From Oscillospiraceae bacterium (GTDB lineage: Bacteria > Bacillota > Clostridia > Oscillospirales > Ruminococcaceae), in assembly GCA_017472735.1 (NCBI GenBank), contig JAFUOD010000008.1, forward strand, positions 1 to 64,000: 64,000 nt of DNA, read 5' to 3'. The number at the start of each line of letters is the position of its first letter. Position 1 is the first letter of the stretch. A program made the translations under genes and the position numbers. Positions 20,279 through 63,180 of this stretch are shown piece after piece. The notes beneath the pieces are model-generated. The model was not told the origin of the DNA. It saw nothing but the letters and a program-made list of their open reading frames with translations, and ran no database searches.

Positions 20279-20485
20279 CCACCGCCAAGCGGTGCCTTCC
20301 GCCACCGCCCCTCCCTTCGGTCGGGGGGCACCGCCCCGCACCGCGCCGCCCACTGCCGCCCTCGCTCGCGCTCGGGCGTCAACTCGGCGGCACTTGTTAC
20401 TGCCTCGGCGCCCCCATCAGCATAACGCCGCCACGGCTCACCACACCTCGCTTTGCTCGCACGGCTCGCCACGGCGGCAGATCAG
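20279..20485. repeat. GC-rich intergenic island 1
   Basis: About 205 bp of very GC-rich, C-biased DNA filling the gap between convergent genes. Contains hairpins CACCGC/GCGGTG (20280-20294) and CCTCCC/GGGGGG-type pairing around 20330, plus repeated words CACCGC, CTCGC and CACGGC. Flanking GCCGCC and GGCGGC words enclose the right part (20428-20479). No gene is seen on either strand. Member of the island family described under findings. Confidence 0.6.
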
Positions 20486-20580
20486 CAATTCTTCCATAGT
20501 AATAACTGCTGAGAAAAACGCCCCCTTGGCATGAAAAAACTCGCACGCAAGCGTGATGACTTTTTTAGTAAGTCACACAC

Positions 20581-21102
20581 TTATAAAATCATCCTCACCG
20601 CAATGCACGAAAGTATTATCGCTGTTAAATCGCCAAGCAGCGCCGAGACTAAAGCGTAGCGTGTGTTTTTAACCTTTGTCGCAGCAAAATAAACCGCAAG
20701 AGTGTAAAATGTCGTTTCGGTCGAGCCTGCCATAACGCTGGCAACCTTACCTGCAAAGCTGTCAGGTGTGTTATCTTTAAATATCTCCTCTAAAACGGTT
20801 AGTGCTCCACTGCCCGAAACAGGCTTTAAAATCGCCAGCGGCACACACTCGGCAGGAAATCCTATAGCCTCCATAACCGGTGAAATAAGCCTTGTAAACC
20901 CATCTAAAGCACCGCTTGCTTTAAGCATGCCAATTGCCAGCATAAGCAAAACAAGTGTCGGCAATAGGTCAAACGCCACCTTAATGTTCTCCTTTGCACC
21001 TTTAACAAACGAGTCAAACACATTTACCTTTTTAAACAACGCATATGTAAAAATTCCAAATACCAAAACGGGAATTATAGCATCAGAAAAGCTCACATCC
21101 AA
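20581..21102 (-). CDS. spmB: Spore maturation protein B
   Basis: Membrane protein of the nucleoside-recognition (Gate) fold, required with SpmA for core dehydration and heat resistance of endospores. 173 residues with about five spans; the motif KPVSGSGALTVLEEIF and MAGSTETTFYTLAVYF are the paired Gate motifs typical of SpmB. Follows spmA by 8 bp on the same strand. Its presence supports an endospore-forming lineage. Confidence 0.93.
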   Translation of the reverse strand: MDVSFSDAIIPVLVFGIFTYALFKKVNVFDSFVKGAKENIKVAFDLLPTLVLLMLAIGMLKASGALDGFTRLISPVMEAIGFPAECVPLAILKPVSGSGALTVLEEIFKDNTPDSFAGKVASVMAGSTETTFYTLAVYFAATKVKNTRYALVSALLGDLTAIILSCIAVRMIL

Positions 21103-21110
21103 ACCCTCTT

Positions 21111-21692
21111 TTATTTCTTTTTAATATCAAACGCAAAAACGCTCGCAACAGACACCAAAAGCGAGATTATCGAAACCACTATCACGCATGGTATTATTTC
21201 CGAGGGCGAAGCACTCCCGTGTGCAATTCTAAGCGCAATAACCGTTGTCGGAATTAACTCAATAGATGATGTGTTGAAAACAGATAGCATTATCATGTTT
21301 CTCGAGGCTTTGTTGCCCGGACATTCTTCCTCTTCAAGACGCTTCATTGCCTCAATTCCCAATGGCGTTGCCGCGTTTCCGAGCCCAAAGATGTTCGCTG
21401 TCACGTTCATGGCAATCGCTTTAAGTGCCTTCGAATCTTTATCTAACCCCGTAAAAACCTTCCTTAAAAGAGGCGTTAACAGCTTTGCCAGCTTGTCGGT
21501 AAGCCCCGAATCTTTTGCAATTTGCAAAATTCCGCCCCATGTTGCCATTACTCCCAGTAATGTAATTACAAGACTTACCGCCTCGTTGCCCGCGCTCATT
21601 ACAGCTTGCGAAATTTCAAATATTTCACATTTTGTAATAATATTATATACAACAGACAAAATGACCATAAAAGCAACAATTATACTAAGCAT
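21111..21692 (-). CDS. spmA: Spore maturation protein A
   Basis: Partner of SpmB, with the same Gate fold. The motif FGLGNAATPLGIEAMKRLEEE is diagnostic of SpmA, and MLSVFNTSSIELIPTTVIALR follows. I place the start at 21692: an earlier in-frame ATG at 21704 directly abuts the GGAG ribosome site with no spacer. The gene is about 194 residues and forms an operon with spmB. Confidence 0.9.
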   Translation of the reverse strand: MLSIIVAFMVILSVVYNIITKCEIFEISQAVMSAGNEAVSLVITLLGVMATWGGILQIAKDSGLTDKLAKLLTPLLRKVFTGLDKDSKALKAIAMNVTANIFGLGNAATPLGIEAMKRLEEEECPGNKASRNMIMLSVFNTSSIELIPTTVIALRIAHGSASPSEIIPCVIVVSIISLLVSVASVFAFDIKKK

Positions 21693-21772
21693 TTTTAAGC
21701 ACATCTCCTAAGTTTTAAAGTAAGTTATTAACAATTATTTAACAATGTTTGATTATTTTTTTACAAATAGTA

Positions 21773-21801
21773 TTGACAAATGGTGATAAATGTCGTAATA
21801 T
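21773..21801 (+). promoter_or_regulatory. Promoter of the AbrB-like gene
   Basis: TTGACA (21773-21778), 17-bp spacer, TAATAT (21796-21801). Confidence 0.8.
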
Positions 21802-21839
21802 AAGGATGTAGTTGTTTAATATTTTTGGAGGTGTTTGAC

Positions 21840-22082
21840 GTGAAATCTACTGGCATTGTAAGAAAAGTTGATGAACTCGGACGTATAGTTATCCCAATGG
21901 AGCTTAGAAAATCTATGGATATTAAGGAAAAAGATCCTCTTGAGATTTTTACCGATGGTGACCGTATAGTCTTAAAGAAATATTCAAATTCTTGCATTTT
22001 CTGCGGTGAAGGCGAAGATATTATCGAATTTGGCGGTAAGCACTTGTGCCCCAATTGCCTTAAGGAAATTAAGAACTTGTAA
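21840..22082 (+). CDS. AbrB/SpoVT-type transition-state regulator with zinc-ribbon tail
   Basis: DNA-binding swapped-hairpin beta-barrel protein. The N-terminus VKSTGIVRKVDELGRIVIP is the classic AbrB domain (1-50). The C-terminal third has a four-Cys knuckle (CIFC about residue 52-55, CPNC about 71-74), a form common in clostridial AbrB-like proteins. Start: GTG 21840 placed 8 bases after GGAGG. AbrB-type proteins control growth-phase genes; targets are unknown here. 80 residues. Confidence 0.9.
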   Translation: MKSTGIVRKVDELGRIVIPMELRKSMDIKEKDPLEIFTDGDRIVLKKYSNSCIFCGEGEDIIEFGGKHLCPNCLKEIKNL

Positions 22083-22099
22083 TCAACTGCCTATTGAAA

Positions 22100-22296
22100 A
22101 CAACTTAATAGCGTAACCTGCTTAGGATTGCATTTTTTAGACGAAAAAGTCGAGCAAATTCGCAAGTCTAAAATCGTGCATTGTATAAAAACCTGCTGTT
22201 ACATATCAATCGGACTTCACGGCAAAAAAGTATTGCTGTGAAGTCTTGTTGTATCGTCTGTTTGTTCGTCTTGATTTTCAAGGCGAACCTTTTTAT
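22100..22296 (+). ncRNA. Candidate structured RNA of about 190 nt
   Basis: The gap after the AbrB-like gene holds three strong helices in a row. A long rod: GTAAC (22113) with GTTAC (22202), AGG/CCT, TGCA (22129-22132 / 22177-22180) and TTTTAGAC (22135-22142) / GTCTAAAA (22166-22173) around a short apical region. Next, a 12-bp stem at 22213-22224 / 22234-22245. Last, a terminator GTTCGTCTTG (22264-22273) / CAAGGCGAAC (22279-22288) with a T5 tail. A rod with internal loops recalls 6S-type RNA, but I see no decisive match. It may be made by read-through from the AbrB-like promoter. Confidence 0.5.
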
Positions 22297-22386
22297 TAAT
22301 TATATTTGCACAAAAGCGCTTTTATGAAGACAACCTTAATGAATTGTGTTTTACTGCTTTTGTTTCATAAATCCTGTTCCTTTACG

Positions 22387-22485
22387 CAAGTCGGGCGCCA
22401 CGAAGCCGCACAACCTCGCTCCGCCCCACAAGGGTGCGGAGCTCGCCGCGCGCCTCCACGGCGCCTCTCACCTCAGCTTCAAGCC
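22387..22485. repeat. GC-rich intergenic island 2
   Basis: GC-rich block just upstream of the ymfF promoter, with hairpin CTCCGC-CCC / GGG-GCGGAG at 22419-22441 and the family words CACAACCTCG and CGCCTCCACGGCGCCTC. No coding signal. Confidence 0.55.
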
Positions 22486-22497
22486 AACAAATATTTC

Positions 22498-22526
22498 TTG
22501 CATAATATGCGATATTGTGGTACAAT
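22498..22526 (+). promoter_or_regulatory. ymfF promoter
   Basis: TTGCAT (22498-22503), 17-bp spacer, TACAAT (22521-22526). Confidence 0.75.
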
Positions 22527-22557
22527 ATTTATAATTGTTCGCAAAGAGGTGAATGCG

Positions 22558-23817
22558 TTGCAAATCGAATATTCATCACGCAATTTAGCAGATGGTGTTA
22601 CCCTAAAAACTGTTCGTGACGGTAAATTCAAGTCAAACATTGTTTCTGTCAAATTTCTTACCGAAAATGTCGAGGAAGATTTGGCTTCTCTTGCACTTTT
22701 GCCGTCGGTGCTTTCTTATACCAACGCAAATTACCCTACCTGCAGTCAGATGAACCATCGCTTAAATTCGCTCTATGGCGCTTCGCTTTTCTCCTCCTGC
22801 GGTCAGCGAGGGGATATGTACGAAGTCAGCGTTTCCTGCGAATACGTTTTAGATAAATACACCTTGGGCGACAAGGTTGCCGATGAAACCGTTAAAATTT
22901 TAATTGATTGCCTTGTTGACCCTGCTCTTGAAAACGGCGCTTTTGCCGAGGAAGAGTTCCTTATTCGCAAAAACGACCTTTTAGACTCGATCGACGGCGA
23001 GATAAACGATAAAACCTCATATGCTCTCACTCTCTCGTGCGAGACTGCTTATGCCGGCGAAAAAGCTGCCAAGCGTTATTACGGCTCAAGGGAGGAGGTC
23101 GAAGCCCTCACACCCAAGCAGGTTTACAAGGTTTACAAAAAGCTTTTAAAAACCGCCGCTATTGAAATTATCTTTACAGGCGGAGGGGATTTCGACTCTC
23201 AGACGGCTCTTTTCAAAAACGTCTTTGATAATAGATGCCCCCCTGAAATCAAATACCATTCCTACAGTCCTCAAAAGCCCACCCCGGCATATGCCCAAGA
23301 GCTTTTAGATGTTTCTCAGGCAAACCTTGTGCTTGCCTTTAAAACCGATTATTACAACCACCCTGCCAACCGCTTAATGGCTTCTTTATATGGCGGAGGG
23401 TATTCAAAGCTTTTTGAAAACGTCCGCGAAAAGCTCAGTCTTTGCTATTTCTGCGACGCCATGTATTCCGAGGTTAAGGCAACGATGACTGTTGTAAGCG
23501 CTGTCGATTTTTGCAACATAGAAAAAGCCAAGGATGAAATTATCCGTCAGCTTTCGCTGGTGGCGCAGGGCGATTTCACCCTCGAAGAGTTAGAGGATAA
23601 AAAGCACCAGACAGCCGCCGCATTAAGATCAAGCTACGATAGCATAAGCGCACTTTCATCCTGGTATTATCTTTGTACCTTAAAAGGCGAGGTCGAAACC
23701 ATTGATGAATATATTAAAAAAGTTCAAAGCGTCACCCGTGACGAAATTGTTCAAGCCGCAAGCCGAATGAAGCTTGACACCGTTTTTGTTTTAAAAGAAG
23801 GTGAGGCGTTAAAGTGA
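22558..23817 (+). CDS. ymfF: M16-family protein YmfF (EF-P modification associated)
   Basis: Inactive-type member of the M16 (insulinase-like) family: the N-terminal half lacks the zinc motif HxxEH, while the fold-specific C-terminal half is kept. In B. subtilis ymfF, ymfH and ymfI act together in 5-aminopentanol modification of elongation factor P. I start at TTG 22558, seven bases after GAGGT, because upstream in-frame codons run into the promoter and the GC-rich island. 419 residues. It overlaps ymfH by 4 bp (GTGA), forming a heterodimer-type pair as in other M16 pairs. Confidence 0.88.
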   Translation: MQIEYSSRNLADGVTLKTVRDGKFKSNIVSVKFLTENVEEDLASLALLPSVLSYTNANYPTCSQMNHRLNSLYGASLFSSCGQRGDMYEVSVSCEYVLDKYTLGDKVADETVKILIDCLVDPALENGAFAEEEFLIRKNDLLDSIDGEINDKTSYALTLSCETAYAGEKAAKRYYGSREEVEALTPKQVYKVYKKLLKTAAIEIIFTGGGDFDSQTALFKNVFDNRCPPEIKYHSYSPQKPTPAYAQELLDVSQANLVLAFKTDYYNHPANRLMASLYGGGYSKLFENVREKLSLCYFCDAMYSEVKATMTVVSAVDFCNIEKAKDEIIRQLSLVAQGDFTLEELEDKKHQTAAALRSSYDSISALSSWYYLCTLKGEVETIDEYIKKVQSVTRDEIVQAASRMKLDTVFVLKEGEALK

Positions 23818-25091
23818 GTTATAACATCGAAACCATTTATAACAAACGTATCGGTGCCAAAGCTTATTACATTAAGCACCAAAGCGGTTTAAGCATTTAT
23901 GTTATGGAGATGGACGGTTTTACCGGCACCAGCGCCATGTTCGGCACAAAATACGGTTCGGTAAACACCACCTTCAAAACCGTTAATGATGACGACTTTA
24001 TCACCGTGCCCGAGGGTGTAGCCCACTTCTTAGAACACAAGCTCTTTGAAAACGAAGACTGCGATGTTTTTAAACTGTTTGCCAAAACAGGCGCACACGA
24101 TAACGCCTACACCAGCTTCGATTCAACCGTATGTTACTTCGATTGCACCGATAATTTTACCCAATCGCTCGAAATCTTGCTCGATTTTGTTCAAAAGCCT
24201 TACTTCACACAAGAGACCGTTGACAAAGAGCAGGGAATAATAGGGCAGGAAATTAGAATGTGCGAGGACAACCCTTACAGACGAGTTTACTTTAACCTTT
24301 TAAGTGCGGTTTATAAAAACCACCCTGTTAAAATTGAAATTGCGGGAACTGTTGATTCTATTTCCAAAATCGACGCAGACCTGCTTTATCGCTGCTATAA
24401 CACGTTTTATAACCTTAACAACATGGTTTTGGCAGTTGCAGGCAATTGTCGGGTCAACGAGGTTTTGGCTGTCTGTGATAAAATGCTTAAGCCAAGCCGG
24501 AATATAGACCTTGAATGTATTTCACCTGACGAACCCGAAGAGGTTGCAAGCAAAATGATAACCCAAAAAATGTCTGTCGGCATACCGTTGTTTGCTTTTG
24601 GCTTCAAAGCGTCGCCCTCAAACGGCAGGCAAAGGCTTAAAGATGAATATATAAGTTCATTTTTGTTAAGTCTTGTTTTCGGTCAAACCTCTCGCTTTTA
24701 TCAGGAAAACTCCGCTTCGGGGCTTATCAATTCAAGCCTCGAATCAGAAACCCTTGACGGCGACGGTTATTTTGTAAACATATTAACAGGCGAGTCTCGC
24801 GACCCCGAAAGGTTGAAGGAACTTGTTATCCGTGAGATACAAAAAGTCCTTAACACAGGAATTGACGAAGCCGAGTTCGAAATGCTCAAGCGCTCACGCT
24901 ACGGCTCAATCATCAAAAGCTTCAACAGCGTGTCGGGCTGCTGCTCGCGCCTGTTGGAAACTCACATCGGCGGCTGCGGACCGTTCGATTCTGTCGATGT
25001 TTTAGCAAGCCTAACGGCCTTGGATATTAACGAGGGAATTAAAAAGCTCCTTGATCCAAACCGTATGGCTGTTTCAATAATTTACCCTTAA
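23814..25091 (+). CDS. ymfH: M16-family metalloprotease YmfH (EF-P modification associated)
   Basis: Zinc peptidase partner of YmfF. The inverted zinc motif HFLEH (in VAHFLEHKLFE, about residues 67-77) and a downstream Glu in EQGIIGQEIRM form the metal site. 425 residues, full length. GTG start overlaps the ymfF stop, so translation is coupled. Linked in Bacillus to modification of elongation factor P; an SDR like YmfI is encoded at 35.4 kb rather than next door. Confidence 0.92.
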   Translation: MSYNIETIYNKRIGAKAYYIKHQSGLSIYVMEMDGFTGTSAMFGTKYGSVNTTFKTVNDDDFITVPEGVAHFLEHKLFENEDCDVFKLFAKTGAHDNAYTSFDSTVCYFDCTDNFTQSLEILLDFVQKPYFTQETVDKEQGIIGQEIRMCEDNPYRRVYFNLLSAVYKNHPVKIEIAGTVDSISKIDADLLYRCYNTFYNLNNMVLAVAGNCRVNEVLAVCDKMLKPSRNIDLECISPDEPEEVASKMITQKMSVGIPLFAFGFKASPSNGRQRLKDEYISSFLLSLVFGQTSRFYQENSASGLINSSLESETLDGDGYFVNILTGESRDPERLKELVIREIQKVLNTGIDEAEFEMLKRSRYGSIIKSFNSVSGCCSRLLETHIGGCGPFDSVDVLASLTALDINEGIKKLLDPNRMAVSIIYP

Positions 25092-25115
25092 GCACACCCT
25101 CGAAAGGAGACAACA

Positions 25116-26297
25116 ATGATTAGCACAATGACAACAGATTTTGTAAGAGAACTGCTTGCGGGCGAAGGTGATAAGCTTTATTTCCCCAACGCCGACTGGC
25201 TTTTCCCTAACGGCCTTAAAATCGACCGTGTAATGTTCACCATCCCCGGCCTCGATATCGACGTTTATTGGTACGGCTTTTTAATCGCATTCGGCATGCT
25301 TCTTGCCATGATCTATGGCTTTAAGCGCCTTAGCCAATGGGGTCTCGAGCCTGACCGTTTTACCGACACTGTTTTGGTCGGCTTGGTTGGAGGTATCATC
25401 GGCGCACGACTTTTCTATGTAATCTTCAGTCTCGACAGGTATATGACTGATGAAGGCACTTTCGACCTTGTTGCCGCACTAAGCATCCGAGACGGCGGTC
25501 TTGCCATTTACGGCGGTGTCATCGGCGCACTTATTCTTGGCTGCACCATGGCAAAAATCCGCAAAGTGCACATTCCTGCACTTTTAGACCTCGTAGGCCT
25601 CGGCTTCTTAATAGGTCAGTCTTTAGGCCGCTGGGGCAACTTCTTTAATCAAGAGGCTTTTGGCTCAAAAACCACCCTCCCTTGGGGCATGACAAGTAAG
25701 TCGATAATTAACTATCTCCACTCATTCTATTATCCCGATAGAGTTACTGTCGTCACCGCTGACGCTTTAGATTTAGTCGCTCACCCTTGCTTCCTTTACG
25801 AGTCGCTTTGGTGCCTTGCAGGTCTTGTTCTTTTGCACTTTTATTCAAAGCGCCGCAAGTTCGACGGCGAAATCTTTTTGGGCTATATCGGCTGGTACGG
25901 TTTGGGCAGATTCTGGATCGAAGGACTTAGAACCGACAGCCTTTACATTCCCGGCACCGAATTCCGTGTTTCTCAGGTAATCGCAGGCACCTGTGTGCTT
26001 TTTGCAATCGCTTTAATAGTCTTTGTACGAATGAATATCAAAAAGAACGGATATACCTTATATCGCGATACCGAAGAATCTAAACAGCTTCTTGCTTTAT
26101 ACGAGGAAAAGAAGGTTCAGTCCAAGCGCCGCGGCAAGCACGCCGATGACGAGTGCGACACAATTTTAGACGCTTCCATTATTGCCGAGGATGAAGACGG
26201 CGAAACATTAAAAGAGGATAATGAAGAATCTGAAAATTCAGACGAAGCACCTCTTGTAGCAGAAAACGACGAAATTAAGGAGACAGACAATGACTAA
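25116..26297 (+). CDS. lgt: Prolipoprotein diacylglyceryl transferase
   Basis: Attaches diacylglycerol to the lipobox Cys of pre-lipoproteins at the membrane, the first step of lipoprotein maturation. Seven-span core (about 35-310), with [10 protein letters not shown] and the Lgt signature [13 protein letters not shown]. The chain has an extra hydrophilic, acidic tail (about 325-393) rich in Glu/Asp, longer than usual. AAAGGAGA lies before the ATG. Several lipoproteins in this window are its substrates. Overlaps folD by 8 bp. Confidence 0.95.
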
Positions 26298-27144
26298 TAT
26301 CATCAACGGTAAAGAAATTTCAGCCTCGGTTAAAGAAAGAATCAGACTTGAAACCGAAAAGCTTTTTAACGAAACAGGCGTAAAGCCCGGACTTGCTGTA
26401 ATCATCGTAGGCGATGATCCCGCTTCGAGAATTTATGTAAACAACAAAAAGAAAGCCTGCTCCGACATCGGCTTCAACTCGTGGGAATATGCCTTGCCTG
26501 CCGAAACCACCGAAGCCGAGCTTTTAGAGCTTATCAACAAGCTTAATAATGATAACAGCGTGCACGGCATTTTGTGTCAGCTTCCTTTGCCCAAGCATTT
26601 AGATGAAAAGACAGTTATCGACGCGATCGACCCCAAAAAAGACGTTGACGCTTTCCATCCCGTAAACGTAGGTAAGATCATGATAGGTGATTACGATTTC
26701 CTTCCCTGCACCCCTGCCGGTGTTATGGAACTTATTCACTCAACAGGCGTAAGCGTTTCGGGCAAGAAGTGTGTTGTTGTCGGCAGGAGTAACATCGTCG
26801 GCAAGCCCATGGCAATGCTTTTGCTGCACGAAAGCGGCACTGTTACCATCTGCCACTCCCGCACCAAAGATTTGGCTGCTGAATGCCGTGAAGCCGATAT
26901 TTTGGTGGTTGCAACAGGCGTTGCAAAAATGGTTAACGGCGACATGGTCAAAGAAGGTGCAGTTGTAATTGACGTTGGCATGGACAGAGACGAAAACGGC
27001 AAGCTCTGCGGCGACGTTGATTTCGACTCCGTTGCTCCCAAGGCTTCGTTCATCACCCCCGTCCCCGGCGGCGTTGGCCCCATGACCATTGCAATGCTCA
27101 TGTCCAACACATTAACAGCTTGCAAAATCGCAATATGCAAATAA
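26290..27144 (+). CDS. folD: Bifunctional methylenetetrahydrofolate dehydrogenase/cyclohydrolase
   Basis: Converts 5,10-methylene-THF to 10-formyl-THF for purines and formyl-Met-tRNA. Catalytic Tyr-x3-Lys appears in YVNNKKKAC (about 50-58); the conserved [12 protein letters not shown] and [11 protein letters not shown] follow; the NADP fold has [28 protein letters not shown] closes the protein. 284 residues, typical. Coupled to lgt. Confidence 0.96.
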
Positions 27145-27149
27145 ATAAT

Positions 27150-27182
27150 AACCCCGTCGGGCACCAAAAGCTCGGCGGGGTT
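27150..27182. terminator. Bidirectional terminator folD / anion permease
   Basis: 13-bp stem AACCCCGTCGGGC (27150-27162) / GCTCGGCGGGGTT (27170-27182). Confidence 0.85.
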
Positions 27183-27191
27183 GCTTTATTT

Positions 27192-28298: not shown

Positions 28299-28464
28299 TT
28301 TTCTCACGCTTCCTCGTGTTGACTTATCAGCTATTATAATGTATTATTTAATCAATCACGAACTTAATAAATGTAGCACAACAAAGGCTTTCAGTCAATT
28401 ATTAATCTGAACATTTTTTATTGATATTTTATAGAAAAAATCAGCAAAAATTGTGAAAACCCCC

Positions 28465-32740: not shown

Positions 32741-32820
32741 AGATGCTGCCCTAACGCGCTCGGCACGGTGCGGCACTCGTCCTCTTGCGAGGACCACGCC
32801 GCACCACGCCTCGCCCCTCA
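32741..32820. repeat. GC-rich intergenic island 3
   Basis: Contains a two-level hairpin: outer GGTGCGGC (32767-32774) / GCCGCACC (32798-32805) and inner GTCCTC (32779-32784) / GAGGAC (32789-32794), all perfect. Family words CGCTCGGCAC and CACGCCTCGCC flank it. Lies between two terminators of convergent genes. Confidence 0.6.
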
Positions 32821-35236: not shown

Positions 35237-35260
35237 TTTTTACGCTCCTTTAATAAATAT

Positions 35261-35353
35261 TGACCGCCGCTACGCAAAACCGCCGCAACTTTGCCCACTT
35301 CATGGGCAAAGCGCGCCTTTGCGTGTTAATACACGCAGTTTTGCACAGCGGCT
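35261..35353. repeat. GC-rich intergenic island 4, three-way palindrome
   Basis: Outer arms GCCGCT-ac-GCAAAAC (35266-35280) and GTTTTGC-ac-AGCGGC (35338-35352) enclose two perfect hairpins: CTTTGCCCA/TGGGCAAAG (35289-35311, loop CTTCA) and TGCGTGT/ACACGCA (35320-35337, loop TAAT). A three-way junction results, with left head ACCGCCGC as in other islands. Confidence 0.7.
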
Positions 35354-36115: not shown

Positions 36116-36205
36116 GTTTAACGTGCCTCCACCTGTCGCACTCTGCCGTTTTTAAGTCTCGCTGTCGCTCAACTTAAAACAGCAGGCGCCGACAGACGTC
36201 GGCAC
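36116..36205. repeat. GC-rich intergenic island 5
   Basis: Hairpins TTTTAAGT/ACTTAAAA (36150-36157 / 36172-36179) and GCCGAC/GTCGGC (36188-36203). The word CCTCCACCTGTCGCACTCTG at 36126-36145 recurs almost unchanged in island 8. Confidence 0.6.
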
Positions 36206-36227
36206 TCATTATTCAAACCGCCTTTGC

Positions 36228-40410: not shown

Positions 40411-40596
40411 ATCGGCGGTCACATTTTCGCTCACAGCTTCACTGCCTACACCGCCGATATAAATATTTCTTGCGGCTTTGTCAAACCGCATTTTGCTAAC
40501 GCAAAACCGAAATATTTCAAACTGCCATCGCGTCAACGCTCGGCACGAAACGCCACTGTGCTCCGCACGCGCCGCTCCACGCCTCGCGCTCGGCAG
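40411..40596. repeat. GC-rich intergenic island 6, compound palindrome
   Basis: Left part: perfect arms ATCGGCGGT (40411-40419) / ACCGCCGAT (40450-40458). Middle: outer AAATATTTC (40461-40469) / GAAATATTT (40509-40517) around hairpins TGCGG-TTT/AAACCGCA (40471-40490) and TTTTGC/GCAAAA (40491-40506), a three-way junction like island 4. Right part is C-rich with CTCCACGCCTCGCGCTCGGC near 40574-40593. Confidence 0.7.
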
Positions 40597-41777: not shown

Positions 41778-41820
41778 AATCTAACCTTCTTGCTTATATA
41801 AACTTATAAATTTGCTAACC

Positions 41821-41885
41821 CAATCGGCTCCACCGCTTGCTCGTTGCCACTCACGCAAGCGACGTCGCCTCAATAAGCGTCAAGC
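41821..41885. repeat. GC-rich intergenic island 7
   Basis: Short island between the desulfurase and thiI. Perfect stem CGCTTGC (41834-41840) / GCAAGCG (41855-41861) and family words CTCCACCGC and GACGTCGCC. Confidence 0.55.
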
Positions 41886-43025: not shown

Positions 43026-43075
43026 GTTCGCTCTCCTTAATATATCTCAATTCCAAAATTTTAAAAAACTGCGCC

Positions 43076-43146
43076 TCAAACCGCTCCTCCACCCGCCGCA
43101 CTCTGCCTTCGGCAGGCGCGCCGGACGTCGTCGCTCATCCGGACAT
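43076..43146. repeat. GC-rich intergenic island 8
   Basis: Contains CCTCCACCCGCCGCACTCTG (43086-43105), matching the word in island 5 at all but two or three positions, plus the hairpin CTGCC/GGCAG and a direct repeat CCGGAC. Sits in the 5' region of the desulfurase gene. Confidence 0.6.
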
Positions 43147-48439: not shown

Positions 48440-48540
48440 AATCCGCCGCTTTTTTGCTTAGCTCACCCGCTCCACGCGTGCGGCACTGCCGCGCCAATGA
48501 GCACCGCAGCCGCACGCACGTCGCTCAAAAACAGCAAAAA
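48440..48540. repeat. GC-rich intergenic island 9
   Basis: Between divergent lepA and the RING-like gene. Perfect 9-bp stem GCGTGCGGC (48476-48484) / GCCGCACGC (48509-48517), wrapped by TTTTTGCT (48451-48458) / AGCAAAAA (48533-48540). Left head is CCGCCGC as in other islands. Confidence 0.65.
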
Positions 48541-51049: not shown

Positions 51050-51118
51050 ACAAACCGCCGCCACGCCTCGGCACTCGCCGCACCTGCGGTGCGCCCACGC
51101 CTCGCCACGGCTGCTCAC
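51050..51118. repeat. GC-rich intergenic island 10
   Basis: Head AAACCGCCGCC, two copies of CCACGCCTCG (51060-51070 and 51104-51114 region) and a perfect hairpin CGCACC/GGTGCG with TGC loop (51079-51093). Lies between convergent units. Confidence 0.6.
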
Positions 51119-54501: not shown

Positions 54502-54506
54502 ATTTT

Positions 54507-54583: not shown

Positions 54584-54588
54584 AAAAA

Positions 54589-54664: not shown

Positions 54665-54696
54665 ATCCTTGTCGCCTTCATCGGGCGACTTTGATT

Positions 54697-54725: not shown

Positions 54726-54743
54726 TACCTTTTAGTAAATTCT

Positions 54744-55613: not shown

Positions 55614-55627
55614 TTATATGTTCCTTC

Positions 55628-56374: not shown

Positions 56375-56676
56375 CAGTCGTTTTCGTGCTTTTTCTTAAG
56401 TCTATCAAAAACAACAGCATAGCCGTTAGAACCGTAGTTAATAGAACGGTTTACGCGGCTTATGGTAGCAGTTGAAGCACCTGTCTCCGAAACAATGTCG
56501 CTGTAAACGTTGCGGTCGTTAAGCATCTTAGCAACCTGATAACGCTGAGAAAGCGATCTTAACTCTAAAACAGTGCAAAGATCTTCAAAGAAGTTATAGC
56601 ACTCTTCTTCGGTCTCCAAAAGAAGAATAGCTTCAAAAAGGTCATCAAGATATTTGTCCTTAATTCTCGAATTCAT
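56374..56676 (-). CDS. YerC/YecD-type TrpR-related regulator
   Basis: 100 residues with a TrpR-like helix-turn-helix: VAKMLNDRNVYSDIVSETGASTATISRVNRSINYG (about 45-79). Binds DNA in a family with few known targets. Heads a three-gene operon; coupled to the methyltransferase. Confidence 0.9.
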   Translation of the reverse strand: MNSRIKDKYLDDLFEAILLLETEEECYNFFEDLCTVLELRSLSQRYQVAKMLNDRNVYSDIVSETGASTATISRVNRSINYGSNGYAVVFDRLKKKHEND

Positions 56677-56740
56677 ATGAAAATTCCTCCAATATTATTA
56701 GTACATTTTTATACAAATATCATTCTACCATATTGCTTTA

Positions 56741-56778
56741 AAAAAGTAAAGCGTTAATGTGCATTACATTAACGCTTT
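56741..56778 (-). terminator. engB-lon terminator
   Basis: Perfect 13-bp palindrome AAAGCGTTAATGT (56748-56760) / ACATTAACGCTTT (56766-56778); ACTTTTTT follows on the minus strand. Confidence 0.9.
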
Positions 56779-56817
56779 GTGAATTTTGCTCAAATATTTT
56801 CGGCTTTTTCATTATTG

Positions 56818-57438
56818 CTATGCCTCGTCGCCCAACATCTCGCCGTCCTCGCAGGCAACATCTTCAATAATTCGTCTTACTTCGGCAACACCCTCGTCTG
56901 TCACCGCCGAGAAGGGTATGACCGTAATATCCTCATAATAAGGAATCTCTGTCTTAAGCGCCTCAAGTCGTTTAGCGCGCTCAGTCTTGTTAAGCTTGTC
57001 AGCCTTTGTGAGTACGACGATAAACGGCAGTTCGTTTTCAACCAAAAAGTCTATCATTTGCAAGTCGTCCTTCGTCGGTGGGTGACGCATATCAATAAGC
57101 GACAAAACCAAAACCAGATCACGCTCCGTGTCACCCAAATATCCGCCTATAAGTCCGCTCCAACGCTCCTTTTCGCTCTTTGCAACCTTTGCATAGCCAT
57201 AACCCGGCAGGTCAACAAAATAAACATTTTCCAAGCCATAAAAGTTAATAGTTGCAGTTTTGCCCGGCACCGAGCTGACACGAGCCAAGTTCTTTCTGCC
57301 GAATATTCTGTTTATCAGCGAGGACTTACCCACGTTCGACCTTCCGGCAAATGCGATCTCCAGCCTTTCAGGCTTAGGTATCTGCGAAAAACTGCCGTAA
57401 GAAGCACAAAACTCAGCTCTTCTAAAATCCATCAGCAT
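56818..57438 (-). CDS. engB: Ribosome biogenesis GTPase EngB/YsxC
   Basis: Essential GTPase for late 50S assembly. G1 GRSNVGKSS (about 31-39), G3 DLPGYG (about 76), G4 TKAD (about 142). 206 residues. The start overlaps lon by 7 bp; ATG 57438 and a second in-frame ATG two codons on are both possible. Follows lon as in Bacillus. Confidence 0.95.
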   Translation of the reverse strand: MLMDFRRAEFCASYGSFSQIPKPERLEIAFAGRSNVGKSSLINRIFGRKNLARVSSVPGKTATINFYGLENVYFVDLPGYGYAKVAKSEKERWSGLIGGYLGDTERDLVLVLSLIDMRHPPTKDDLQMIDFLVENELPFIVVLTKADKLNKTERAKRLEALKTEIPYYEDITVIPFSAVTDEGVAEVRRIIEDVACEDGEMLGDEA

Positions 57439-59837
57439 CTTACTCCTAACTGTTTGTTTGTCTTTTTCATTATGTTCGAGGGTATCTGCTTTTCGGGTTT
57501 GTTGTCAACAATCAAAGCCACATTCAAAACATCGTCAATGGTTTCGGCAAAAACAAATTCAATTGCTTGCTTAACCTTGTCATCAACCTCTTCAAGGTCG
57601 GGCTTGTTCGCCGCAGGAATAACCACCGTCTTAATTCCTGCCTTATAAGCTGCCATTGTCTTTTCACGCAGACCGCCAATAGCCAAAACCTTGCCTCTTA
57701 AGGTTATTTCGCCTGTCATAGCAACGTCAGCTCTTACAGGTATACCCGAAAGCTCAGATATAATAGCGGTTGCCATTGTTACACCTGCCGAGGGGCCGTC
57801 CTTCGGCACTGCACCCTCGGGTGCATGAATGTGAATATCTTTTTTAGTATAAAAATCCTTGTCGATATTAAATCTCTCGGCAACGCTTCTGGCATAGCTT
57901 ACTGCAATTTTTGCGCTTTCCTTCATAACATCGCCTAAAGAGCCTGTCAGCTCAATAACACCCTTGCCGTCCAAAGATATAACTTCAAGAGGCATAAGCG
58001 TTCCCCCTACCGAGGTCCACGCAAGGCCGTTAACCTCGCCAACGCAAGGTGTGCTCAATTTCAAATCGTCGGTAAACTTTCTTGTACCAAGATATTTTTC
58101 TGCAGTTTCGGGGGTAATAGTCACGCGTGAAGCATTTTTAGAAACTATCTCCTTAGCCGCTTTTCTGCAAAGCGAGGCAATAGTGCGCTCCAAGGTTCTC
58201 ACGCCTGCTTCTTTTGTATAGTGGTCAATTATCTCATAAAGCCCTGCATCAGAAATTCTGAACATATTGCCGTTAAGACCGTTTTTCTTAAGCTGTTTTG
58301 GCAAAAGGTGACGCTTTGCAATTTCAAACTTTTCCTCTCTTGTATAGCTGGGCAGCTCAATAACGTCCATTCTGTCCAAAAGGGGAGGAGCTACAGTTGA
58401 AAGGTCGTTTGCCGTCGTCACAAACAAAACATCCGATAAATCAAACGGTATTTCCAAAAAGTGATCTCTGAACTCCTTGTTTTGTTCAGCGTCCAAAACC
58501 TCAAGCATCGCACTCGAAGGGTCGCCCTTAAAGTCGTTCGACATCTTATCAATTTCATCAAGCAAAATCAAAGGGTTCTTTGTGCCTGCCTGCTTAATTG
58601 CGTTTATAATTCTGCCGGGCATCGAACCGATATATGTCTTTCTGTGACCTCTTATGTCCGATTCATCCTTAACGCCGCCCAAAGAGACTCTTACATACTT
58701 TCTTCCCAAAGCCTCGGCGATCGAGCGTCCTATCGAGGTTTTTCCCACACCCGGAGGGCCTGCAAGACAGATTATCTGTCCCTTAACATCCGGTGTCAAA
58801 GATCTTACAGATAAAAGCTCCAAAATTCGTTCCTTAACCTTTTTCATACCATAGTGGTCACGGTCAAGCTGATCGGAAACCTTTTTAATGTCGGTGTTGT
58901 CAATTGTCGATTCATTCCACGGCAAAGCCAAAACCGTGTCTAAATATCCTCTTATAACCGCAGCCTCCTGCGATCCAGAAGGCATCTTCGTCAGGCGGTT
59001 AGCTTCGTCAACAAGCTTTTCTACTGTCTGCTCGCTAAGACCAAGCTTCGAGATCCTTTCAAGATACTTATAAGCCTCATCGTCACCGTCGTCATCGCCA
59101 AGCTCGCGTTTAATAACTCTAAGCTCCTCGCGCAAGTAATACTCACGCTGACTGCGCTCAATAACCTCGCTAACCTTCGAGTGAATATCCTTTTCAATCG
59201 AAAGAATATGTGTTTCCTTTGTTAAAATTGCAAGCAAAACCGCAAGCTTGTCGCTTAGTGCCGAGGTCTCCAAAACCTGCTGCTTATCCTCAGTTGTCAT
59301 GTTAACGTTAAAAGCAATAGCTTCATAAAGCTCAAGCGGGCTCTTTGCATTCAAAACGGCAGCTTTAAGCTCCTCTGGCATTCTGGGCACAACGTGCGAA
59401 TAAGCCTCAAAAGCGCTTTTAACAACTCTGGTCATTGCATTAATTTCATCAGCCAATGCCTTGTCCTTCGCAAAGTTCCGCATCGGCTTAACGGTTGCGG
59501 TAATTCCTAAGCCCTCTTTTGAAAGCTTTAAAAGCTTTGCACGGTAAAGTCCGTCAACACGCACTCTCGAGATCCCGTCGGTACCCTTAACTATCTGCTT
59601 TATCTCGCAAACAGTACCAATCTTATAAACGTCGTTAATGTCGGGGTCCTGAACGCTGTTATCCTTCTGCGCTGTTAAAAACACAAGCCTTGTGCTTTCA
59701 AGCGCTGTTTTTAACGAGGCCAAAGACCTCGCGCGTGAAACGTCAAATCTCACAGTCATCTTAGGGTGAACAATAACATCCCTCGTAGCAACACAGGGCA
59801 GTTCTAAATCCTGTATAACTTTATTCTCTAAATCCAT
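57432..59837 (-). CDS. lon: Lon ATP-dependent protease
   Basis: Degrades misfolded and regulatory proteins. LAN domain (about 10-205), helical linker, AAA+ domain with Walker A GPPGVGKTS (360-368) and Walker B LILLDEID; C-terminal protease with Ser683 in PKDGPSAGV and Lys726 in GGLREKTMAA as the catalytic dyad. 801 residues, standard. Cotranscribed with engB. Confidence 0.97.
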   Translation of the reverse strand: MDLENKVIQDLELPCVATRDVIVHPKMTVRFDVSRARSLASLKTALESTRLVFLTAQKDNSVQDPDINDVYKIGTVCEIKQIVKGTDGISRVRVDGLYRAKLLKLSKEGLGITATVKPMRNFAKDKALADEINAMTRVVKSAFEAYSHVVPRMPEELKAAVLNAKSPLELYEAIAFNVNMTTEDKQQVLETSALSDKLAVLLAILTKETHILSIEKDIHSKVSEVIERSQREYYLREELRVIKRELGDDDGDDEAYKYLERISKLGLSEQTVEKLVDEANRLTKMPSGSQEAAVIRGYLDTVLALPWNESTIDNTDIKKVSDQLDRDHYGMKKVKERILELLSVRSLTPDVKGQIICLAGPPGVGKTSIGRSIAEALGRKYVRVSLGGVKDESDIRGHRKTYIGSMPGRIINAIKQAGTKNPLILLDEIDKMSNDFKGDPSSAMLEVLDAEQNKEFRDHFLEIPFDLSDVLFVTTANDLSTVAPPLLDRMDVIELPSYTREEKFEIAKRHLLPKQLKKNGLNGNMFRISDAGLYEIIDHYTKEAGVRTLERTIASLCRKAAKEIVSKNASRVTITPETAEKYLGTRKFTDDLKLSTPCVGEVNGLAWTSVGGTLMPLEVISLDGKGVIELTGSLGDVMKESAKIAVSYARSVAERFNIDKDFYTKKDIHIHAPEGAVPKDGPSAGVTMATAIISELSGIPVRADVAMTGEITLRGKVLAIGGLREKTMAAYKAGIKTVVIPAANKPDLEEVDDKVKQAIEFVFAETIDDVLNVALIVDNKPEKQIPSNIMKKTNKQLGVRC

Positions 59838-59926
59838 ATATGTACCATCCTTAGTTTTTGCGTTTATATGTAAAAGAAATTGTGTACTTTCAATATCAAT
59901 GCGACACTAACGCATCGGTAGAAACA

Positions 59927-59955
59927 ATTATAGCAAATATGAATAATTTTTGCAA
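59927..59955 (-). promoter_or_regulatory. lon promoter
   Basis: Minus strand TTGCAA (complement of 59950-59955), 17-bp spacer, TATAAT (complement of 59927-59932). A small hairpin ATGCG/CGCAT at 59900-59915 lies in the leader. Confidence 0.8.
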
Positions 59956-59999
59956 TAGAAAACAAGTGGAGAATATCAACGCATTTTTTTCAAAAACGC

Positions 60000-60028
60000 T
60001 TGACATTTTTATTTATTTGTGGTAACAT
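60000..60028 (+). promoter_or_regulatory. tRNA-Arg promoter
   Basis: TTGACA (60000-60005), 17-bp spacer, TAACAT (60023-60028). Confidence 0.85.
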
Positions 60029-60043
60029 AATTTCTCGTGGAAT

Positions 60044-60120
60044 GCGCTCGTAGCTCAGCTGGATAGAGTGACTGGCTACGAACCAGTAGGTCAGGGGTTC
60101 GAGTCCCTTCGGGCGCGCCA
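60044..60120 (+). tRNA. tRNA-Arg (ACG)
   Basis: Acceptor GCGCTCG / CGGGCGC, anticodon loop CTACGAA gives ACG (A34 becomes inosine), T-arm GTTCGAGTC, discriminator G, CCA encoded. 77 nt. Confidence 0.95.
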
Positions 60121-60223
60121 AAACAAAGAACACCAACCCTTGTGGTTGGTGTTTTTTTGTTTGCCCGAACGGGACTCGAAGCCTGAGAGGGTGAGGCACG
60201 TTAAAAAAACAGTCCTGCGGACT
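60103..60223 (+). repeat. 121-bp repeat, copy 1 (starts inside tRNA-Arg)
   Basis: Identical to 60293-60413 but for one base, period 190 bp. Begins with the last 18 nt of the tRNA and carries a terminator, an antisense copy of the T-arm (60163-60180) and part of another hairpin ACAGTCC/GGACTGT (60209-60225). Confidence 0.9.
60129..60158 (+). terminator. tRNA-Arg terminator
   Basis: Perfect 10-bp stem AACACCAACC (60129-60138) / GGTTGGTGTT (60144-60153), T-run after. Confidence 0.92.
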
Positions 60224-60292
60224 GTTTTTAGTGCCGAAGTCCGAAGCGGTTGTGCCGCGAGGACGGATCATGCGAACAAAGAGAGCAGGATC

Positions 60293-60413
60293 GTCCCTTC
60301 GGGCGCGCCAAAACAAAGAACACCAACCCATGTGGTTGGTGTTTTTTTGTTTGCCCGAACGGGACTCGAAGCCTGAGAGGGTGAGGCACGTTAAAAAAAC
60401 AGTCCTGCGGACT
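60293..60413 (+). repeat. 121-bp repeat, copy 2
   Basis: Second copy, including the tRNA 3' end without the rest of the tRNA. It stops in the middle of the GGACTGT hairpin arm. The 69 bp between copies (60224-60292) hold hairpin GTCC-GCGG/CCGC-GGAC pairing near 60240-60265. From 60414 to 60522 is AT-rich and leads to the next gene. Confidence 0.9.
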
Positions 60414-60522
60414 TACCTAAGCCTTTGCAACATTGACAAAAATCTCCTTTTACGATATATTTTAATCATAAGCCTTTGTTTCACAGTTTTTTCATTAGAT
60501 TTCAAGCAGGAGGTAATACATT

Positions 60523-61794
60523 GTGTTTATACTTGAATTGCTTATGATTTCTCCGATTATATTGATAATTTTAGGCGTTATCGGTTACAACCTTGTAGCT
60601 CATAATAAGCTGTTGCATTTAGGCAGGGTATTTATGATGCTTCCGATAATAGGACTCATATTCTTTGTTGAAATAATTTTGCATCTTCTTTTTAACTTTA
60701 TAAGCTCATATGCCGATGCAATCAACACGATGTTATGGATTCTTGGCTTGTTGCTTATAGCTTTATTCGCTTTTGTTATGTGGAAAGTTATAAAAAAGAA
60801 AGCCGTTTACATACCTCTTATAGTCTGTACAGCAATATGTGTGTGCATCACCGGCGTTCTTATCGCTCTTGATAACAAAGATAACAGTATTCCGACTATG
60901 AGAGAAAACGAAGATTTATTATCTTCGTATGTTCCTTATGTAGAAGATACCAAAGTCGCCGAGCTTGACGAAGAATCCACCTTGCTTATTACTGAAGATG
61001 TCCCTAAAATGGACGGCGCAACTGCCATGTATCCTGTGTATTCAGCTTTTGCAAAGGCGGTTTATCCTGAAACATTGATTGGAAACGAATTTGAGTATGA
61101 TTACTTAGTTAACGAGCATCTAATGTGCAACACAACTACCGAAGCATATATCAGAATTGCACAGGGCGATGCCGATATAATCTTTGCTTTTGCTCCTTCT
61201 GCCGAGCAAGTGCAGTTCGCCAAAGAAAAGGGTGCTGAGCTTGTGCTAACCCCTGTCGGTAAAGAAGCATTTGTATTTTTCGTTAATAGCAGAAATCCCA
61301 TAGACAACTTAACTCTTGAACAGGTTCAGGCAATCTATTCGGGTGAAATAACTCGTTGGAATGATCTTGGTGTCGAAGGCTTTGGCGATATTCGTGCATT
61401 CCAGCGTGATGAAGGAAGCGGAAGCCAAAGCACCTTGATAAGTATAATGGAAGGAAAAGAACTTGTCGAAGCTCCCAAAGAAAATATTGTCAGAGCAATG
61501 GGCGGTATCATCTCACAAACCGCCGACTACAAAAACTATAAAAACGCAATCGGGTTCTCTTTCAGATTCTATTCAACAGAAATGGCGGCAAATGACCAAA
61601 TCAAGATTTTGAGCATTGATGGCGTTGCCCCGACAGTAGAAAATATCGAAAACGGCACCTATCCTCTGACGTATGATTTCTACGCTGTCACCCGAAGCGA
61701 TGCGAGCGAAAATACGCTAAAGCTTGTTGAATGGATTCTTTCCGAACAGGGTCAGGAATTAGTCGAAAAAACAGGATATACCCCTGTTAAATAA
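60523..61794 (+). CDS. Membrane-anchored PstS-like substrate-binding protein
   Basis: 423 residues. The first 115 residues form four TM spans (about 4-24, 36-60, 66-88, 97-116), followed by a periplasmic-binding domain (about 155-423) of the phosphate-binding PstS class: MDGATAMYPVYSAFAKAVYP, EAFVFFVNSRNPIDNLTLEQVQAIYSGEITRW and the loop RDEGSGSQST that binds an oxyanion. A PstS protein is normally a lipoprotein next to pstCAB; here no transporter genes adjoin. GTG start nine bases after AGGAGG. It may be a sensor. Confidence 0.85.
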   Translation: MFILELLMISPIILIILGVIGYNLVAHNKLLHLGRVFMMLPIIGLIFFVEIILHLLFNFISSYADAINTMLWILGLLLIALFAFVMWKVIKKKAVYIPLIVCTAICVCITGVLIALDNKDNSIPTMRENEDLLSSYVPYVEDTKVAELDEESTLLITEDVPKMDGATAMYPVYSAFAKAVYPETLIGNEFEYDYLVNEHLMCNTTTEAYIRIAQGDADIIFAFAPSAEQVQFAKEKGAELVLTPVGKEAFVFFVNSRNPIDNLTLEQVQAIYSGEITRWNDLGVEGFGDIRAFQRDEGSGSQSTLISIMEGKELVEAPKENIVRAMGGIISQTADYKNYKNAIGFSFRFYSTEMAANDQIKILSIDGVAPTVENIENGTYPLTYDFYAVTRSDASENTLKLVEWILSEQGQELVEKTGYTPVK

Positions 61795-61951
61795 GATATA
61801 CTCCGAATTGATATAGCTTCATTTTAATACCGAGTGCCTTCGCAATGTTGCGTGTGGACAATCAATCTCATGGAATTTAAAAAAATCCCTTGCTAACTGC
61901 TTGGGATTTTTGTATTATATAAGAAATGCATTTATTCAAAAAGGTGACACC

Positions 61952-63124
61952 ATGAAACTAAATTACAATCACACTGTTTATGCTTGCTACTTAGGCTACA
62001 TAACTCAGGCAATAATCAACAACTTTGCTCCGCTTCTTTTTCTCACTTTTCAAGATAGCTTCGGTATCCCTCTTGAAAAGATAACGCTTTTAATTACACT
62101 GAATTTTGTGACCCAGCTTTTTGTCGATTTCATATCGGCAAAGTTCGTTGATAAAATAGGTTATCGCACAAGCATAATCATTGCACACATCTGCTGTGCT
62201 TTGGGACTTATCGGAATGGCGGTCTTGCCTCATCTTATCGCACCTTATGCAGGGCTTATGATCTCTGTTATACTTTACGCCATCGGCGGAGGCATTATCG
62301 AAGTTCTCATCAGCCCCATAGTCGAAGCTTGCCCCTCTGATAACAAGGCTTCTGCCATGAGCTTGCTTCATTCCTTTTACTGCTGGGGCAGTGTTGCTGT
62401 AGTTTTACTCTCCACCCTGTTTTTGGGAGGGTTCGGCAAGCAAAGCTGGCCGATATTAGCGCTTATTTGGGCACTTGTACCTGTTTTTAATACGGTTTAT
62501 TTCACAATGGTTCCCATAAACAGCCTTGCCGATGAAACCGAACCTATGTCTATAAAACAGCTTTTCAGTTTAAAGATATTCTGGATATTTGCAGTTTTAA
62601 TGCTTTGTGCAGGTGCCAGCGAGCTTGCGATGACCCAGTGGGCATCAGCATTTACCGAAAGCGCATTGGGTGTATCAAAAGCAGTCGGAGATCTGGCAGG
62701 ACCCTGCTTCTTTGCTGTTTTAATGGGTACTTGCCGAGTTTTATATGCCAAGTTCGGCGCAAAGCTCGACCTTATAAAAGCGGTAACGCTTAGCTGCTGC
62801 CTTTGTATCTTTGCTTATCTTATTATCGTATTTTCACCCTCACCGATAATGTCGCTCATTGGCTGTGGCATTTGCGGCTTCTCGGTAGGTCTGCTTTGGC
62901 CGGGCGTGTTTAGCCTCGCCGCCGAAAAATGCCCCAAAGGTGCAACAGCAATGTTTGCGTTTTTGGCACTTGCAGGCGACCTTGGTTGTTCAACAGGCCC
63001 AACACTCGTCGGCTTTATTGCAGGCGCATTTAACGATAACCTGAAAGCAGGTTTACTTGCCGCAATAATTTTCCCGATAATAATGATAATATTTGCTCAA
63101 ATTCTGAAACGAACCGAAAAATAA
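61952..63124 (+). CDS. MFS transporter
   Basis: 390 residues, 12 spans, major facilitator family. The half-break falls near EPMSIKQLFSLKIFW. Start ATG 61952 after AAAGGTGACACC; the longer frame lacks a ribosome site. Resembles sugar/drug porters of the FucP/YbjJ kind, but substrate cannot be named. Confidence 0.85.
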   Translation: MKLNYNHTVYACYLGYITQAIINNFAPLLFLTFQDSFGIPLEKITLLITLNFVTQLFVDFISAKFVDKIGYRTSIIIAHICCALGLIGMAVLPHLIAPYAGLMISVILYAIGGGIIEVLISPIVEACPSDNKASAMSLLHSFYCWGSVAVVLLSTLFLGGFGKQSWPILALIWALVPVFNTVYFTMVPINSLADETEPMSIKQLFSLKIFWIFAVLMLCAGASELAMTQWASAFTESALGVSKAVGDLAGPCFFAVLMGTCRVLYAKFGAKLDLIKAVTLSCCLCIFAYLIIVFSPSPIMSLIGCGICGFSVGLLWPGVFSLAAEKCPKGATAMFAFLALAGDLGCSTGPTLVGFIAGAFNDNLKAGLLAAIIFPIIMIIFAQILKRTEK

Positions 63125-63180
63125 CCGCCGCCACTACTTCCGCACAGGTTTCACCGCGCGTTCGTAACGGCGGCTCCCCA
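63123..63180. repeat. GC-rich intergenic island 11
   Basis: Head AACCGCCGCC right at the MFS stop; CCGCCG and CGGCGG words pair across the island (near 63125 and 63168). Confidence 0.55.

Follow-up and report, generated by a model that had tools for sequence, protein, structure and literature searches.

Repetitive extragenic palindromic (REP) sequences and the related REPINs (REP doublets forming hairpins), which go with Y1 transposases called RAYTs (REP-associated tyrosine transposases), are described in three papers (PMC2817692, PMC3116915, PMC3733652) as small GC-rich hairpin repeats of spacers, often species-specific and arranged in mosaics, that are thought to move as hairpins of single-stranded DNA. 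The repetitive hairpin elements of mitochondria, as PMC2800124 has them, are non-coding and partly GC-rich and invade spacers in a few lineages. Here we consider a set of GC-rich hairpin islands between the genes of an Oscillospiraceae bacterium of the gut, a relative of Ruminococcus, found in the first 64,000 nucleotides of contig JAFUOD010000008.1 (C2:1-64000), the whole stretch that was analysed and which we call the window. The contig belongs to a draft genome (G000) of 1.94 Mb in 29 contigs, 97.95% complete. An earlier note, made from the letters of the window alone, had picked out eleven such islands as one family, in which structure rather than sequence seemed to be kept, and had offered mobile non-autonomous elements, RNA-processing sites or nucleoid sites as explanations.

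The reading that we prefer, with a probability of roughly 0.55, is that each island is one copy of an interspersed element, small (about 50-90 bp) and non-autonomous, of a kind that has been moved as a recognised single-stranded fold. The dispersal of the elements is well supported; the enzyme and the mechanism we infer. Each unit folds better on its G-rich strand than on the opposite one, as a long hairpin of short Watson-Crick helices joined by GT/GT and GA/GA steps; on the preferred reading, an enzyme would recognise this folded single strand, either in DNA that is transiently single-stranded at replication or in an RNA copy; and the unit would have been moved mostly into terminator-adjacent spacers, where insertion may be tolerated. 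Because recognition would be of the fold, the sequence of the stems would be free to drift while their pairs are kept. Among the explanations of the earlier note, the guess at mobile elements is the best, and its interpretation as a whole is partly supported.

Class A and class D

The islands are as C-biased and GC-rich as had been said: their GC content is 0.51-0.68 and C exceeds G in all eleven, whereas the 28 other spacers of at least 60 bp in the window have a GC content of 0.354 and show no bias towards C (957 C, 988 G). They lie between genes and none is genic; the open reading frame (ORF) at 22306-23817, which runs over the island at 22387, matches its family only from residue 97, downstream of the island. 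The hairpins, too, are real by folding z-scores of -2.6 to -7.6 across the eleven islands (100 approximate dinucleotide shuffles each), and the stretch said to be shared by the fifth and eighth islands (36116 and 43076) holds over 11 exact bases, or 17 of 19 by eye. The words said to be common to the islands are present but more thinly spread than was claimed (ACCGCCGC and CACGCCTCG in three of eleven each, CTCCAC in six of eleven); none of the three occurs on the opposite strand of any island. What was not borne out is the single family. One covariance model accounts for six of the islands (class A). Of the remaining five, four have GACGT opposite GTGGA (class D), which is strictly so in three, and beside these two classes there are a few other elements.

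Class A was aligned from eleven copies in the genome itself (MAFFT), and the covariance model R1 was built on this alignment. On the G-rich strand its plan runs from an arm, GGCGCC or GCCGCC, through GT, three bases, GA, three bases and GT to an inner hairpin, and then through GT, three bases, GA, three bases and GT to the closing arm. The three-base blocks pair with each other, GT stands opposite GT (two wobble pairs) and GA opposite GA. The GA/GA steps are probably tandem sheared G.A pairs, as such sequences form in RNA and DNA; such steps, like GNA triloops, are unusually stable.

Evidence that the pairing itself is maintained comes from several directions. In the MAFFT alignment there are 10 double-sided pair changes, against 4.2 +-1.2 in shuffles (0 of 500), and the count is also above that of slid structures; among 29 distinct rows that were fitted with the model and lean to the structure, the figures are 14 and 8.3. 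In these rows the outer GT/GT step always retains its two pairs (29 of 29), and the inner step has one pair that reads C-G in 15, U.G in 13 and is broken in none, and another that reads G.U in 24 and is broken in 3. A search for the plan with no pairing requirement found seven copies in the G000 sequence examined, each with five or six of its six block pairs complementary, including GGC/GCC swapped for GCC/GGC. Its four matches in 80 named loci (the best 80 thiI relatives from a named search, mostly labelled Ruminococcus, Oscillospiraceae or Clostridia, both metagenome-assembled genomes and isolates) had only 0-2 of six.

R1 finds at least 42 matches in the genome at E<=0.1, in 14 of the 29 contigs, whereas a 226-bp stretch of the window, used as the query of a sequence search, had 14 matches at E<=10. 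The 42, taken from 150 first-look candidates scored per genome with rough E-values, are a lower bound (the copy at 63122, at 26.7 bits, is not listed) and include the 11 training copies, one mutually overlapping pair and one contig-end repeat. In the 30 congeners that, with G000, make up the genus comparison set of 31 genomes, there is among the matches listed a single weak one (G011, E 0.0067) and none in the other 29. Collected genome-wide and modelled by covariance, as the earlier note had proposed, class A thus appears as a strongly covarying element amplified in its own species.

Six R1 matches at E<=0.012 lie in the window, all on the minus strand. The copy at 51052..51117 is typical (69.5 bits) and directly follows an intrinsic terminator; that at 20422..20481 (69.1 bits), which folds better on the minus strand, lies within a larger GC-rich island (20279-20495) with more hairpins; and that at 32754..32816 (48 bits; z -6.0) stands between two terminator-like hairpins. 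These three belong to the training set. The other three are from outside it: a short copy at 63122..63177 (26.7 bits, E 0.001), one with a long inner hairpin at 22389..22468 (26.5 bits, E 0.0011) and one at 40534..40589 (21.6 bits, E 0.012) that adjoins, by eye, a two-hairpin unit of the form AAATATTTC...GAAATATTT. On the remaining five islands R1 gives three matches at E 7-9, the same level as chance matches, and two are unlisted.

In class D, GACGT facing GTGGA makes a GA/GA step, one C-G pair and a GT/GT step between complementary stems. A strict descriptor of this arrangement has eight matches in 724,621 bases, of which three are the islands at 36128, 41829 and 48471; with its sides exchanged it has none, and 35 control motif pairs gave a mean of 0.09 and a maximum of 1. 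The islands concerned, again on the minus strand, are 36118..36210, with an inner GA-GC-GACA-GC-GA hairpin (descriptor match 36128-36200; z -7.6), 41820..41875, in the gap between a nifS-type gene and thiI (match 41829-41866), and 48461..48532 (match 48471-48522). A degenerate copy with GACGT, GTGGA and an imperfect inner stem, at 43071..43146 (minus), was recognised by eye on sequence and fold and is missed by the strict descriptor. The last island, 35260..35352 (minus; fold z -6.8), is by eye a two-hairpin element with a GT/GT step only (AGCCGCT-GT-GCAAAAC ... GTTTTGC-GT-AGCGGC); it scores only 8.4 bits with R1 (E 8). The set of GT/GT and GA/GA steps recurs in classes A and D, and we claim it no further than these two.

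A third type of unit has AT-rich arms, AAATATTTC...GAAATATTT (or AAATTTGG...), around two hairpins. It is seen in the window at about 40460-40520 (by eye) and, elsewhere in the genome, at C2:93222-93277, C16:23685-23741 and C16:61134-61194. Nine of ten window proteins examined match ordinary families (thiI, nifS-type cysteine desulfurase, hemW, lepA, lon, SpoIID-like, sortase-like and others) and one is without a match. Among the 80 thiI relatives the nearest has 75% protein identity, and Candidatus Faeciplasma pullistercoris (Oscillospiraceae) has 72%. Judged by coordinates, this last is probably genome G012, and G018 is probably Lapin-015__bin65. At 60103-60413 there are two 121-bp direct repeats, 99% identical and 190 bp apart, beside a tRNA at 60044-60117.

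Dispersal, strand and neighbouring genes

Three class A copies (C18:785, C25:22926 and C25:23475) are 100% identical over 54 bp, from GGCGCC to GGCGCC, and their flanks are unrelated on both sides. In addition, two of the island-bearing gaps are narrow in the majority of relatives. Between the nifS-type gene and thiI this genome has 114 bp, island included, whereas 15 of the 25 loci compared (drawn from the 80 named loci) have 0-47 bp. Around island 35260 it has 130 bp; of 15 relatives, measured from tblastn ends, 13 have 15-27 bp and the remaining two 64 and 135 bp. These are comparisons with relatives rather than with conspecific empty sites, some of the loci being near-duplicates (L039, L041), and in that form they suggest that the islands are later arrivals. 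The empty-site comparison proposed in the earlier note has to this extent been made, with relatives in place of strains of the same species. Its suggestion of mobile non-autonomous elements gains from the identical copies at unrelated sites, from the amplification within the species and from the islands in gaps that are short elsewhere.

One further class A copy occurs both at C7:19952 and at C27:20084 (L212, L213) with identical flanks over the stretch shown; this is probably an overlap or a duplicated contig end. Together with the 160 kb at C29:140001-300000, where GC is lower (0.409) and there are hardly any islands, it is what could be cited for the islands being an artefact of assembly or binning, as the earlier note had allowed. 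Yet R1 has matches in 14 of 29 contigs, C29 itself bears both a cloverleaf (at 398 kb; the class is described below) and, at 410 kb, a match to class A, and the cloverleaf pattern is found in 10 contigs of this assembly and in 18 of the 30 congeners, ten of which have at least 11 matches. An artefact is therefore exceedingly improbable.

Folding is more stable on the G-rich strand at each of 27 class A places (mean -10.9 kcal/mol) and at all ten class D and other islands (mean -10.3 kcal/mol). The 27 are 25 of the 42 together with 63122 and 40534; the other 17 were omitted as weaker, overlapping, duplicate or outside the sequence examined. G.U pairs make up 107 of 598 pairs on the folded strand of class A and 11 of 478 on the complement, at places found by a model favouring such pairs. 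A strand difference of at least 8 kcal/mol is seen in 78% of class A, compared with 23% of 300 other stable GC-rich spacer windows, from which class A was excluded and in which class D and cloverleaves were included. Within the window, the note's statement that the islands are tied to no strand holds as regards the genes, but not otherwise: the minus strand folds better in all eleven, whatever the direction of the neighbouring gene.

A constraint on one strand that involves G.U pairs is also what a structured cis-acting RNA would have, if the G-rich strand were transcribed and the hairpin stabilised, processed or terminated the neighbouring mRNA. It agrees with this that 17 of 28 class A places have a terminator-like hairpin no more than 80 bp away, compared with 34.9% of 3000 random spacer positions (binomial p 0.008; the detector may partly register the element hairpins themselves), and that islands 41820 and 35260 are flanked by same-direction genes with the folded strand as the coding strand. 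The orientation of the genes in general does not: relative to the folded strand, 13 of the 27 class A places have an upstream gene in sense and 14 one in antisense, 12 of the places are between two antisense genes, and a gene-sense rule was therefore rejected. Rfam 15 finds five tRNAs only in the window, with no island reaching its gathering threshold (in 7 of 20 further stretches it finds six tRNAs, a T-box, a lysine riboswitch, HTH-XRE and pemK), and the islands are not common to most relatives at the two gaps compared. The RNA-processing idea of the earlier note thus draws no support from gene orientation, although the G.U pairs and the proximity to terminators count for it, and we consider a cis-acting RNA unlikely.

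The common direction of the islands could alternatively point to protein binding sites in duplex DNA, serving the nucleoid, gyrase or segregation as in some REPs or bacterial interspersed mosaic elements (BIMEs). If directions were random, the probability that all eleven islands would share one is 0.001, a figure for which the choice of C-biased islands in the earlier note accounts in part; two further R1 matches on C2, outside that choice, are on the minus strand as well, on the G-rich side by third-codon skew. A duplex site, however, would not need strand-specific wobble pairs, and on other contigs the directions are mixed, so that this explanation is quite improbable. Where the third-codon skew is clear, it suggests that the folded strand is the G-rich strand on C2, C10, C8 and C22, on C29 at 410 kb and on C19 at 43 kb; the skew is too small for a call on C7, C18, C20, C25 and C27. 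A replication-strand rule for the orientation of the fold is suggestive only. If it held, the fold would lie on the lagging-strand template. Elements of the IS200/IS605 type act on the lagging-strand template.

Several results weigh against the elements having been moved as recognised folds. No target-site duplication is seen at the three identical 54-bp copies, and the gene between the two on C25, considered as a transposase, was rejected, being read by eye as luxS. In nine of the 25 nifS-type gene/thiI loci the gap is long (84-552 bp) and AT-rich, and one locus has no nifS match. The skew has exceptions: C19 is split at 60-62 kb, C11 is opposite, and on C16, where the skew is weak, class A is opposite and class D agrees. 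One of the 27 class A places crosses a called ORF. Among the 2x2 steps in all hairpins of the G000 spacers there is no excess of GT/GT or GA/GA (2 and 1 of 51), in a survey whose start condition misses class A. Lastly, the genome, at its 97.95% completeness, has no match to Y1_Tnp (an E. coli control was positive; other transposase families were not searched) and none to RVT_1.

Mobilisation by a Y1 or RAYT enzyme was rejected on wider grounds as well: Y1_Tnp is present in 8 of the 31 genus genomes, does not follow the number of cloverleaves and is absent from the cloverleaf-rich G042, G010 and G003. Derivation from a reverse transcriptase or group II intron was rejected on the absence of RVT_1 from the genome. 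A tandem-GA hairpin sequence supposed to be common in gut Firmicutes was found in 0 of 299 genomes, which lends that supposition no support.

The cloverleaf class

A sister class, outside the window, was noticed in islands of other contigs. This cloverleaf has an GGCGAAGC arm, three back-to-back hairpins of almost any sequence, and GCTTCGCC. Its pattern has 12 matches in the genome, spread over 10 contigs, and 160, 120, 73, 25, 21, 21, 20, 14, 12 and 11 in ten congeners; eight others have 1-5 (some evidently chance) and 12 have none, with 0-1 for the reversed control. Across 295 genomes of the order, and leaving aside g1 itself, more than two matches occur only in genus g16 of the same family (3, 7 and 23). 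The search is tied to the fixed arm and blind to other arms, of which at least three cloverleaves here provide examples (C2:112362, C10:70058 and C10:71273). When 1.36 Mb of the 80 named loci was scanned for the structure only, two cloverleaves came up; both are in L036, and shuffles yielded none.

By energy folding, 77 of 77 copies form three hairpins with at least 70% of their bases paired. These copies, all picked by the fixed arm, are 12 from the genome itself, 22 from G018, 20 of 25 from G010, 16 from G041, 4 from G042 and 3 from named loci; among the five G010 matches left out is C1:170986, which is not cloverleaf-like, so that the pattern gives some false matches. Taken with the covariation of class A above shuffles, this bears out the view of the earlier note that structure rather than sequence is kept. 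None of the 22 G018 copies overlaps a called gene. Cloverleaves pair in Watson-Crick fashion on both strands: 25 of 2910 pairs are G.U, and the strands differ by a mean of 1.5 kcal/mol. Among 173 triloops parsed there are 65 GNA and 81 of the complementary TNC, and C-G closes 142 of these 146. The cloverleaf elements probably form another family in the style of class A, with pairing that is perfect on both strands.

Perfect hairpins, those of the cloverleaf above all, might instead be kept by a mutational mechanism (template switching, or the copying of hairpin arms in single-stranded DNA) rather than by selection or a transposase. Pairing on both strands would follow, as would the occurrence of GNA together with its complement. 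There is also a subfamily of 11 of the 20 G010 copies in which hairpin 1 is constant, hairpin 2 is free in sequence but mostly paired and hairpin 3 keeps its stem; oriented by hairpin 1, the loop of hairpin 3 is TTC in 5, GAA in 4, TTT in 1 and TCC in 1, as expected from loop inversion. The mechanism leaves unexplained how the elements reach new sites, why the hairpins number three in 77 of 77 copies, and the constant outer arm (by which, it should be noted, the copies were picked). It also misfits class A, whose GT/GT and GA/GA steps are unable to pair in the complementary strand. As an explanation the mutational mechanism is distinctly unlikely.

A viral origin was rejected. In viral contigs a slightly longer cloverleaf pattern has 75 matches, of which only 6 have three hairpins and 70% pairing, unlike the 77 copies above; the sole viral match to a class A word sits inside open reading frames. 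One query against plasmids gave no match. The spacers around the G018 cloverleaves (L167-L186) are, by eye, mosaics with repeated modules, AAAGTGCAGACTCAGCG, GGTATTCGCT...CATGCTATTTTAAGCCCC and CTCCC...GGGAG hairpins. Several other families of the order have an unrelated repeat that ends in GGCGAAGC and contains TTCATAACT/AGTTATGA words (G284:C29, G029:C45, G050:C3 and G306:C41).

A broader possibility, which we put forward tentatively and hold to be somewhat doubtful, is that these classes represent a kind of mobile element that passes on its identity as a fold, so that each species of the genus amplifies sequences of its own under a shared architecture, with hairpins swapped and loops inverted, and with no known HUH transposase or reverse transcriptase. 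The architectures, recognised in single-stranded form, would be helices joined by GT/GT and GA/GA steps (classes A and D) and an outer arm around exactly three hairpins (the cloverleaf), and what recognises them could be an enzyme or the replication process. Known bacterial palindromic repeats are detected by sequence; these elements keep the fold while the stems change, and sequence searches consequently see little of them. The islands are a natural set for the study of how small DNAs are recognised by shape, and of what moves them where neither a RAYT nor a reverse transcriptase can be detected. With up to 160 pattern matches per genome, the cloverleaf makes selection and template switching directly testable as explanations of perfect palindromes.

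Comparison with known systems

No description of these elements or of their folding rules was found in the openly licensed PMC literature. They resemble the structured RNAs of Rfam in having a covarying fold with G.U pairs, and differ in that the islands have no Rfam 15 match and no consistent sense relation to genes. Group II introns and other retro-elements would be expected with a reverse transcriptase in the genome, in which RVT_1 has 0 matches. In the mitochondrial hairpin elements, according to PMC2800124, stems are conserved and loops vary; here the stems vary with pairing kept, and the triloops of the cloverleaf are mostly GNA or its complement.

Miniature inverted-repeat transposable elements (MITEs) are likewise short, non-coding and multi-copy with complementary ends. 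Terminal inverted repeats are found here as GGCGCC...GGCGCC in the three identical copies, and the other arms vary but mostly stay complementary. The differences are that no duplication was seen at the three copies, that no transposase with matching ends is known (DDE families were not searched) and that the interior is structured throughout.

REPs and REPINs, going by PMC2817692, PMC3116915 and PMC3733652, share with the islands their small size, GC-rich hairpins, location in spacers, species specificity and mosaics. A REP of the GTAG/CGTC super-families is a palindrome of 20-40 bp with an unpaired end tag, GTAG/GTGG or CGTC. Class A has about twice this unit length (about 54-66 bp), its ends are paired GGCGCC/GCCGCC arms, GTGG and CGTC occur inside, in paired steps, and its stem sequence is variable. 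REPINs consist of inverted units, whereas the halves of class A are near-identical direct repeats (GTGGCGAGGCGTG / GTGCCGAGCCGTG) that fold through variable G/C positions and the GT/GA steps. The RAYT gene (Y1, PF01797) that repeats flank in those systems has no counterpart among the proteins of this genome, where Y1_Tnp has 0 matches. By these three tested features the elements are not REPs; in behaviour, they are REP-like or MITE-like.

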